DNA from: an uncultured Oxalobacteraceae bacterium
Lineage (GTDB): Bacteria > Pseudomonadota > Gammaproteobacteria > Burkholderiales > Burkholderiaceae_D
DNA: 64,000 bases
Reading direction: 5' to 3'
Assembly: GCA_903893945.1 (NCBI GenBank)
Contig: CAITOF010000026.1
Span: 1 to 64,000, forward strand
In this document: piece by piece, positions 51,555 through 54,510 of the stretch
Layout of the letters: each line of letters starts with the position of its first letter
Numbering within the stretch: the first letter of the stretch is position 1
Notes under the pieces: model-generated
Told to the model about the DNA's origin: nothing
The model's input: only the letters and a program-made list of their open reading frames with translations
Database searches by the model: none
Position numbers and translations under genes: made by a program

Positions 51555-53093
51555 TCACAGCTGCGGATTGACCTTTTCAATCTTGGAATGCAGTTTATTC
51601 AATGCGGCGATATAGGCTTTGGCCGACGCAACGATAATATCGGGATCGGCGCCGACCCCGTTTACGATACGGCCCGCTTTGGACAAACGGATCGTGACTT
51701 CGCCCTGCGACTGGGTTCCTTCGGTAATGGCATTCACTGAAAACAGCAGGAACTCCGCACCGCTTTGCGTGACCGACTCGACGGCCGCGAGCGTCGCATC
51801 AACCGGTCCGTTACCCAGTCCTTCGCTGACGGTTTCTTTGCCGTCGATGGAGAAAATCACTTTGGCGCGCGATTTTGCGCCAGATTCCGAACTCTGGCTG
51901 AGCGAAACAAAGTTGTAATATTCCTTGGTATGTGAATGCTGCTCGTCAGACACCAGCGCCATGATGTCTTCATCATAAATTTCAGATTTCCGGTCCGCCA
52001 GTTCCTTGAAGCGCGCAAACGCGGCGTTGACTTCGGCTTCCGATTCGAGCTCAATACCCAGTTCATCCAAACGCTGTTTAAACGCATTGCGCCCGGACAA
52101 TTTACCCAGCACGATCTTGTTGGCGGCCCAGCCCACGTCTTCTGCGCGCATGATTTCATAGGTATCACGCGCTTTCAGTATGCCGTCCTGATGTATTCCC
52201 GACGCATGTGCAAATGCATTCGCGCCGACCACCGCCTTATTCGGCTGAACGTTAAAGCCGGTAATCTGCGCCACCAATTTCGAGGTTGGCACAATCTGGG
52301 TTGTATCGATACCCAGCTGAAAATCGAAATAATCTTTACGGGTGCGAATTGCCATGACGATTTCTTCCAGAGCCGTGTTCCCTGCCCGCTCACCCAACCC
52401 GTTGATGGTGCACTCCACCTGGCGCGCCCCGCCTATGATCACACCGGATAATGAATTGGCCACCGCCATACCCAGGTCGTTATGGCAATGCACCGACCAG
52501 ATCGCCTTGTCGGAATTGGGAATGCGTTCACGCAGGTTCCTGATCATGGTGCCGTACAGCGTTGGTACCGCATAGCCCACCGTATCTGCAAAGTTAATGG
52601 TAGTGGCGCCTTCGTTGATGACTGTTTCAATCACACGGCACAAAAAATCCATTTCGGAACGGCTGCCGTCTTCGGGACTGAATTCAACATCATCGGTAAA
52701 TTTCCGTGCATAGCGCACGGCCATTTTTGCCTGTTCGACCACCTGATCCGGACTCATGCGCAGTTTTTTCTCCATATGCAAAGGCGAGGTCGCAATGAAG
52801 GTATGTATCCGCTTGCGCTGCGCATGTTCCAGTGCTTCGGCGGCCCGGGCGATGTCTCGGTCGTTGGCACGCGACAGGGAGCAGACGATGGAATCCCTGA
52901 TGACGCTGGAAATCGACCGGATGGATTCAAAATCCCCTTGTGACGCGGCGGCAAATCCGGCTTCAATCACATCAACACGCAAGCGTTCCAGCTGCTTGGC
53001 AATACGAATTTTTTCGTCTCGGGTCATCGATGCGCCAGGTGACTGTTCGCCATCACGCAAGGTCGTGTCAAATATGATGAGTTTTTCTGCCAT
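51555..53093 (-). CDS. leuA: 2-isopropylmalate synthase
   Basis: A 512-residue enzyme for the first committed step of leucine synthesis: acetyl-CoA plus 2-ketoisovalerate to 2-isopropylmalate. The N-terminal TIM barrel has [17 protein letters not shown] and the metal-site [43 protein letters not shown] follows. The C-terminal regulatory domain (about 390-510) normally binds leucine for feedback control. Start is MAEKLIIF (53093) with GGAG upstream. A leucine-rich mini-ORF and a promoter lie 130-260 bases upstream. Confidence 0.98.
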
Positions 53094-53221
53094 GGTGTAC
53101 TCCATTTAATGAAATTAGTGGGGATAAGAAATTTAAAAACAGACATAAAATTTGCATGTTCTTCTCACCTCTTGCCGGTTTGACATGAGGGGGACAAACT
53201 CAAATTGTGGGGGTATGTGAT

Positions 53222-53320
53222 TTAGCGCGTTGGCCGCACTAGATCCAGAAACAGGTTCAGAACCAGCAGGGACACTGCCAGTTTGAGGGGTGAATTAATG
53301 CGGATGAATGGGGTAGACAT
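53222..53320 (-). CDS. candidate leucine-rich leader peptide upstream of leuA
   Basis: A 32-codon ORF, too short for the track: MSTPFIRINSPLKLAVSLLV then LNLFLDLVRPTR. Eight of the middle 17 residues are leucine. It has no Shine-Dalgarno, but a good promoter places the transcript start within about 1-3 bases of the ATG, so it could be translated as a leaderless message. It ends 128 bases before leuA. Leucine-rich leaders control leu operons by attenuation elsewhere. I see no strong terminator hairpin here, so the mechanism is open. It could also be a small membrane peptide. Confidence 0.42.
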   Translation of the reverse strand: MSTPFIRINSPLKLAVSLLVLNLFLDLVRPTR

Positions 53321-53328
53321 GGAGACAG

Positions 53329-53357
53329 ACTATAAGTGCAAATAACATGAAACGCAA
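53329..53357 (-). promoter_or_regulatory. candidate sigma-70 promoter for the leuA leader
   Basis: On the minus strand TTGCGT (53357-53352) and TATAGT (53334-53329) are 17 bases apart. TATAGT matches 5 of 6 of the -10 consensus; TTGCGT matches 3 of 6. The predicted start near 53322 nearly coincides with the mini-ORF ATG at 53320. The rest of the pssA-leuA gap (53358-53486) holds no gene I recognise. Confidence 0.45.
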
Positions 53358-53486
53358 CACCTTCCATGCACTTTTCCTGAATTTTTTGAAAAACCATTCC
53401 GGTTGGGCGGCTTTATCGCTCTGCCGGTCATCCCGAAGGACTTCATTGCCCTGGATCAGCGGCTTGAATTGCCTGTCGCTGCAGGC

Positions 53487-54359
53487 TCAATCGTGGTCAC
53501 TGTCATGTTCATGCTCTTCGACTTTTGTTTGCACAATACTAACAGGTCGGCCTTTTCTCCAGCGCCACAGGAAGATGGCATAACCGGAAATACAATAAAG
53601 GACAAACACACTGAACAAAACTATCGAGGGAAAACTGACGATCAGCACGTAGGCCAGCACCAATACCAGCGGCACAGCAAAAGGCACCGATTTTTTCAGA
53701 TTGATTTCTTTGAAACTATAGAACGGGATATTGCTGACCATCGTAAAGCCGGCAACCAGGGTAATCGCCCAGATTACCCAGCGCAAATCAGCCGCGTCCA
53801 GTTTAAAATCCGTGACTGCCCAGATAAAACCGGCAACCAGTCCTGCCGCGGCGGGGCTCGGAATGCCCTGAAAATAACGTTTATCGACCACCGCGATATT
53901 GGTATTAAACCGTGCCAACCGGAGCGCCGCGCAGGCACAGTAAACAAACGCGGCAAGCCAGCCCCATTGGCCCAAGCCACGCAATCCCCATTCATAGGCG
54001 ACCAGCGCAGGTGCTGCACCAAACGACACCATGTCGGACAAACTGTCATACTGCGCACCAAACTCGCTTTGCGTGTTGGTCAAACGCGCCACCCGGCCGT
54101 CCAGGCTATCGAGCACCATCGCAATGAACACCGCAAAGGTTGCCTTGTCAAAATGACCATCCATCCCCATCACGATGGCATAAAAGCCGCAGAATAGCGC
54201 CGCCGTGGTAAACGCATTCGGCAACAGGTAAATGCCGCGACGCGGCTTTTTCTTTACCCCGACCGGACCGGCCGCTCCGACGGCCTTGCTGGACGGTTTC
54301 TTGATAACTTTAAAAAAGTTCTTAAAGTTGGCTTTGGTTTGACGACGTTGGAATGCCAT
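53487..54359 (-). CDS. pssA: CDP-diacylglycerol--serine O-phosphatidyltransferase
   Basis: A membrane enzyme of about 290 residues that makes phosphatidylserine, precursor of phosphatidylethanolamine. The CDP-alcohol phosphotransferase motif is intact (DSLDGRVARLTNTQSEFGAQYDSLSDMVSFG). Several helices follow. PNAFTTAALFCGFYAIV is the first one. I chose the ATG at 54359 (AAGG 5 bases upstream); the ORF-track start is a TTG. The decarboxylase gene psd, often next to pssA in related genomes, is not in this window. Confidence 0.94.
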   Translation of the reverse strand: MAFQRRQTKANFKNFFKVIKKPSSKAVGAAGPVGVKKKPRRGIYLLPNAFTTAALFCGFYAIVMGMDGHFDKATFAVFIAMVLDSLDGRVARLTNTQSEFGAQYDSLSDMVSFGAAPALVAYEWGLRGLGQWGWLAAFVYCACAALRLARFNTNIAVVDKRYFQGIPSPAAAGLVAGFIWAVTDFKLDAADLRWVIWAITLVAGFTMVSNIPFYSFKEINLKKSVPFAVPLVLVLAYVLIVSFPSIVLFSVFVLYCISGYAIFLWRWRKGRPVSIVQTKVEEHEHDSDHD

Positions 54360-54510
54360 GCGAGCCTTGTGCAAAGGTTGACCGGTTTCAGTTACATCAG
54401 CGACTGACGTCGCCAACAATTATTGGCGCCAAGTATAGCTTCATTTCCGTCAGGCTCAAAATAGTTGCACGCTGCGCTTCGGCGACCCGACGCTATTGCA
54501 CGGAATCTGT

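Follow-up and report, generated by a model that had tools for sequence, protein, structure and literature searches.

The window, by which we mean the entire 64,000-nt stretch of DNA analyzed here, carries a leuA gene preceded by a short, leucine-dense open reading frame (ORF), and all features of this locus (leader, promoter, hairpins, and leuA) lie on the minus strand (Table 1). The original prediction, accurate wherever it could be verified, had placed a Leu-dense ORF of 32 codons 128 nt before leuA: the frame opens with an ATG at 53320, its stop codon ends at 53222, and the leuA ATG follows at 53093. Eight of the 32 codons specify leucine (six CTG, one CTC, and one CTA), and the sole CTA is the last of them, at the foot of a hairpin designated P1. 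The upstream neighbor of the leader is pssA (53487 to 54419). The genome is Oxalobacteraceae-like: its nearest named relatives by LeuA sequence, at 82 to 84% identity, belong mostly to the Oxalobacteraceae (Collimonas and Undibacterium, for example). An alternative leuA start at 53105 (MEYTMAEK) is readable, but both the Shine-Dalgarno spacing and the relatives favor the ATG at 53093 (MAEK). A comparison of six leaders with Pfam and NCBIfam recovered no match above cut-off; the one weak match, to DUF1294 (E value of 0.15), was far below the family cut-off and was rejected.

Table 1. Coordinates of the features at the leuA leader locus of the window
Feature	Position	Strand	Remarks
-35 hexamer TTGCGT	53352..53357	-	Family consensus TTGCRC
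-10 hexamer TATAGT	53329..53334	-	8 nt before the leader ATG; the commonest -10, in 23 of 59 leaders
Leader peptide ORF	53222..53320	-	Leucine-rich, predicted leaderless, 32 aa, MSTPFIRINSPLKLAVSLLVLNLFLDLVRPTR; frame and position kept in same-genus and order-wide relatives
Hairpin P1 (TAGTGCG-gccaa-CGCGCTA)	53223..53241	-	Reaches from the last Leu codon (CTA) to the stop codon
Conserved motif CCCACAATTTGAG	53199..53211	-	C-rich, G-poor stretch after the stop; from alignment
Hairpin P2 core (CCTC.TGTC...GGCA.GAGG)	53168..53190	-	Outer pairs may extend to 53207-53149
leuA Shine-Dalgarno GGAG	53100..53103	-	Before ATG 53093
leuA, 2-isopropylmalate synthase	51555..53093	-	Putative controlled gene; 82-88% identical to its counterparts in close relatives

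Promoter geometry and predicted start

The two promoter hexamers of the window are separated by a 17-nt spacer, and the bases between the -10 hexamer and the leader ATG (CTGTCTCC) are all pyrimidines but for one, which makes the A of the leader ATG itself the earliest suitably placed purine. The transcript should thus begin at this ATG or within a few bases of it, and no Shine-Dalgarno-like sequence was found upstream of the ATG in the window. This promoter spacing, the predicted start near the ATG, and the missing Shine-Dalgarno had all been proposed beforehand, and all recur in relatives: among 59 distinct leaders, TTGCRY with 17-nt spacing is present in 33 and a -10-to-ATG gap of 6 to 7 nt in 45, while only 2 have an SD-like sequence, compared to 57 of the 59 associated leuA genes. 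A generic promoter scan of the window reported none at its thresholds because the TTGCGT-TATAGT pair scores below them.

Promoter architecture varies within the order. The leader promoter in Comamonadaceae (loci L067 to L111 of our set) resembles an extended -10 (TGTGCTACATT) with no clear -35 and differs from the TTGCRC-17-TATAGT arrangement of other groups. At two loci (L003 and L004), terminator-like hairpins with long T runs lie between pssA and the leader (GGCCATTCCTGCGGGGATGGCTTTTTTTTT and AAGCCATTTCCTGCGAAATGGCTTTTTTT, respectively); these end the upstream operon, so that the leader there forms its own transcription unit. No obvious terminator-like hairpin is present between pssA and the leader in the window.

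Conservation and spread of the leader

We examined 78 Burkholderiales leuA loci having at least 120 nt of room and scored as a leader any ORF of 12 to 60 codons with at least 4 leucines in 10 residues whose ATG lies 4 to 9 nt after a TAnnnT box. A leaderless, Leu-dense ORF was identified in 53 of these loci, compared to 0.47 to 0.56 per dinucleotide-shuffled set, and when the same definition was applied to other amino acids, the next best were serine (10 loci) and alanine (7 loci). The order pssA-leader-leuA is retained in three genomes of the same genus, as are the promoter, the position of the ATG, the reading frame, and the C terminus, with TATAGT at an almost equal distance in all three. 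Their leaders end in LLLDLVRFTR in two cases and in LILVRFTR in the third, each directly before the stop codon, and C-terminal differences within the genus are often synonymous (CTG/CTA, AAC/AAT, and GAT/GAC); the N-terminal half is variable even at this level. Lack of conservation of the frame or of the leucine codons in close relatives had been named as the outcome that would speak against a leader, and both are conserved.

To follow the element further, a covariance model (R1) was built from the end of the leader and the RNA that follows. Among the 146 genomes of the window's family, 39 (from 15 of 44 genera) had one R1 match each; the window's own genome has one significant copy, and all 30 family loci fetched with the model lie directly upstream of leuA with a leaderless Leu-rich ORF. 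Elsewhere in the order, a leader is present in about 13 of 21 leuA loci drawn one each from 21 other families, two of these being weak (L155 and L157). The commonest C terminus in the order is LLLRPAR (CTG CTG CTG CGC CCC GCG CGC TAA), of which LVRPTR in the window is a variant, and the peptides of different families have little in common save the leucine codons and the arginine end.

Enrichment of the rare CTA codon

CTA makes up 143 of the 371 leucine codons in the 59 distinct leaders, versus 20 of 2,178 in the leuA genes behind them, which served as the reference for codon usage; this corresponds to an enrichment of about 40-fold. Leaders were selected by counting leucine residues and not codons, and the CTA bias is therefore no artifact of selection. 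A sensor that responds to how fully a minor leucine tRNA is charged would be expected to show such enrichment. The window leader is mild in this respect, with CTA at one of its eight leucine codons.

RNA structure behind the leader in the window's family

P1 is a hairpin of 5 to 8 bp in all 32 distinct sequences of the window's family, with changed arms, a loop of variable length among relatives, and a mean z score of -3.9 against shuffles. Between P1 and a second hairpin, P2, lies an unpaired conserved motif, CCCACAATTYGWG, within a C-rich stretch; the motif as delimited in the window, CCCACAATTTGAG, has a single exact copy in the genome. In the P2 core of eight pairs, 93.7% of cells are paired and two-sided changes occur in six of the pairs; none of 500 shuffles reached covariation as high, and slid controls had 32 to 44% of their cells paired.

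The first reading of this DNA had missed these two conserved hairpins at and after the leader end, but its statement that no strong terminator hairpin follows the leader is borne out in the window's family. An intrinsic terminator scan at the window locus found none, and P2 in the family is followed by no U-tract and often by A-rich sequence; an AAATTTT end is possible for P2 in the window, with a weak T-rich stretch behind it. No covarying antiterminator helix between the leader end and P2 rose above permutation in the family sequences, although the C-rich linker and the 3' arm of P2 are complementary in general, and no consistent switch emerged from minimum-energy folds computed after removal of the part covered by the ribosome. 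The competing terminator and antiterminator that would mark an attenuator were thus not found in the window's family. At 52900 to 53700, none of 4,227 Rfam families, T-box and Leu_leader included, matched at E values up to 10, and an Rfam scan of the whole window likewise gave no match.

Putative output structures in other families

In Comamonadaceae the leader ends in ...CACGGGCGG...TAG, behind which lies GGCCCGTATGCACC-GCAGCGGGCC-TTTTGTTTT, an intrinsic terminator with a U-tract. Across 22 sequences, the leader has an invariant GGGC and the terminator hairpin an invariant GCCCGT and CGGGC; the leader end is complementary to the 5' arm of the terminator, and the Leu-codon stretch is in turn complementary to the leader end. 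Judged by these predicted pairings, the Comamonadaceae layout is that of a classical four-segment attenuator. Cupriavidus has a different terminator (ACGCCCCGGCC...GCCGGGGCGTTTTGC) and a different complementary leader segment (GGTCGGG); its complementarity runs through other sequences, so the principle is kept while the sequence has changed.

Several other families of the order have a clean hairpin with no U-tract at the place of P2, as at L153 (TTGTCTTTTACC-taag-GGTAAAAGACAA). The leaders at L144 to L158 end in LLLRPAR or similar residues, often with a perfect hairpin lacking a U-tract behind them.

A probable leaderless leucine sensor and its output

Our analysis indicates that the mini-ORF very probably encodes a leucine leader peptide, carried on a leaderless transcript that would continue into leuA, and that it most likely serves to sense leucine shortage. 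This interpretation, which the original prediction had offered on the window alone, gains support from the conserved frame and leucine codons of relatives, the order-wide pattern, and the roughly 40-fold enrichment of CTA. In the mechanism we envision, the transcript would be translated from its 5' end by leaderless initiation. When charged leucyl-tRNA is scarce, chiefly that reading the rare CUA, the ribosome would stall in the Leu-rich C-terminal part of the leader; stalling at the last CUA would hold P1 open and alter what becomes of the RNA downstream, and leuA would be made. With plentiful leucine, the ribosome would reach the stop codon and leuA would be turned down. As for the output step in the window's family, our first guess is that Rho ends transcription prematurely in the C-rich stretch behind the stop codon, with noncanonical termination at P2 or control of leuA translation as alternatives.

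Under the Rho-dependent form of this leader-peptide mechanism, Rho would load on the C-rich, G-poor RNA (CATACCCCCACAAT) once the ribosome leaves the stop codon and would end transcription before leuA, and a stalled ribosome would alter access to this RNA. Over the 50 nt behind the leader stop, the ratio of C to G is 2.37 in the window's family, compared to 1.2 to 1.55 in other groups; this ratio, the missing U-tract after P2, and the empty terminator scan speak for this form. Base composition by itself is no demonstration of Rho dependence, however, and the strict conservation of CCCACAATTYGWG exceeds what a rut site needs, while P2 is left unexplained; we regard this form as a tentative possibility that falls somewhat short of an even chance.

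A classical intrinsic attenuator, in which P2 of the window would act as the terminator and an antiterminator would form upon stalling, is the second form that the leader-peptide mechanism could take. Its textbook version stands at the equivalent place in Comamonadaceae and Cupriavidus, P2 is conserved with covariation, and the possible AAATTTT end and weak T-rich stretch of the window also favor it. We nevertheless consider it doubtful, given that most family members have no U-tract, that P2 often precedes A-rich sequence, and that neither the terminator scan nor the search for a covarying competing helix gave a positive result.

Control could also be exerted on translation, the leader ribosome reshaping the RNA to expose or block the start site of leuA with no termination of transcription. 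The lack of a terminator would fit such control, as would the Shine-Dalgarno that 57 of 59 leuA genes have of their own and the change in predicted folds when the 5' part is occluded. P2 is separated from the Shine-Dalgarno by some 45 to 65 nt in the window, however, and this distance is variable; the folds show no conserved pairing with the Shine-Dalgarno either, and we rate this third form as unlikely.

The remaining explanations deny the ORF a role in sensing. A functional small membrane protein would account for a hydrophobic, Leu-rich peptide of 16 to 53 aa at a conserved position, but the N-terminal half is unconserved even within the genus, the peptides of different families differ apart from the leucine codons and the arginine end, the CTA enrichment is a signal at the level of codons and not of protein, and Pfam and NCBIfam gave no match above cut-off, making this explanation very improbable. 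That the ORF arose by chance beside an ordinary leuA promoter can be rejected with near certainty, since, common as short ORFs are (many occur in the window), 53 of 78 loci carry a leader against about 0.5 expected and the ORF is conserved both in the genus and across the order.

Returning to the leucine leader peptide, we propose, at a confidence just under even, that the leaderless leucine sensor is order-wide and that its output module has been switched between lineages. Comamonadaceae and Cupriavidus would use an intrinsic terminator, whereas the window's family and several others would use the P1-CCCACAATTYGWG-P2 arrangement with no U-tract, stopping leuA expression through Rho, a noncanonical terminator, or some factor that binds the motif.

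Comparison with known leader peptides

One of the nearest known counterparts is the leuL leader of the leuABCD operon in Escherichia coli and Salmonella, the Leu_leader family of Rfam (RF00512). The leucine codons of this leuL include the rare CUA. The window leader, which is predicted to act in the manner of leuL, is similar to it as a short ORF of leucine codons between a promoter and leuA, again with the rare CUA among them. It differs in having no Shine-Dalgarno and, by prediction, no 5' untranslated region; its sequence is unrelated and has no Rfam match, the window's family has no intrinsic terminator, and leuA stands without leuBCD. The E. coli leuL peptide has 28 aa with 4 leucines (PMC6123439).

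Several features of the leader have precedents elsewhere. According to a citing article, the ilvBNC leader peptide of Corynebacterium glutamicum is produced with no ribosome binding site (Morbach 2000, cited in PMC4046766), and the leuA leader peptide of this species is cg4015 (PMC4046766). The likeness lies in leucine codons before leuA and in an SD-less leader (there for ilvBNC); the Burkholderiales leader is set apart from these actinobacterial leaders by its order-wide lineage and its own P1-motif-P2 RNA. The trpL leader (peTrpL) of Sinorhizobium meliloti is likewise leaderless and belongs to the transcription attenuator of a proteobacterium (PMC7298713), but it concerns tryptophan in Alphaproteobacteria and has a different RNA. 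In Staphylococcus aureus a leucine-rich attenuator peptide controls branched-chain amino acid genes (PMC5794164); it resembles the window peptide in its leucine content and differs in phylum and target operon. Start-site studies of B. cenocepacia and C. metallidurans describe leaderless mRNAs as frequent in Burkholderia and Cupriavidus, and their main text mentions neither leuA nor leader peptides (PMC4603805 and PMC7563307). No leucine leader is described for Betaproteobacteria in the literature we searched, which did not extend to a 2004 survey of proteobacterial attenuators (Vitreschak et al., cited in PMC5794164) that may mention one. A leucine leader peptide is thus a textbook kind of element, while neither its leaderless form, spread across the order, nor the P1-motif-P2 element is present in the databases searched (Rfam, Pfam, and NCBIfam).

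These findings have several implications. In the Burkholderiales, a large order that includes many species from plants, soil, and the clinic, leucine attenuation would apparently be an old means of controlling leuA. A leaderless ORF acting as a sensor in a natural series of genomes would place leaderless initiation within a measurable regulatory circuit, and the existence of lineages with and without an intrinsic terminator makes a change in the output step of an attenuator directly testable. Annotation also benefits: a small gene and an RNA element, absent from the copies of Rfam, Pfam, and NCBIfam that were searched, can be added to dozens of genomes.

Lineages lacking the leader

The leader is absent from Massilia, Duganella, and Janthinobacterium, where leuA lies within 35 to 82 nt of pssA, and also from Collimonas, which implies that it is dispensable for leuA in the family. 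The short pssA-leuA gap of 35 to 82 nt, too small to accommodate a leader, occurs in these three genera and their relatives at L023, L025, L026, L044 to L047, L057, L059, L061, L064, L066, L068, and L105. At the Collimonas loci (L010, L033, L034, and L036) and at L009 and L019, all lacking the leader, a LysM-like gene, judged by its end sequence alone, apparently lies between pssA and leuA, and L009 retains a remnant-like CCATTACAATTCATGTA stretch.
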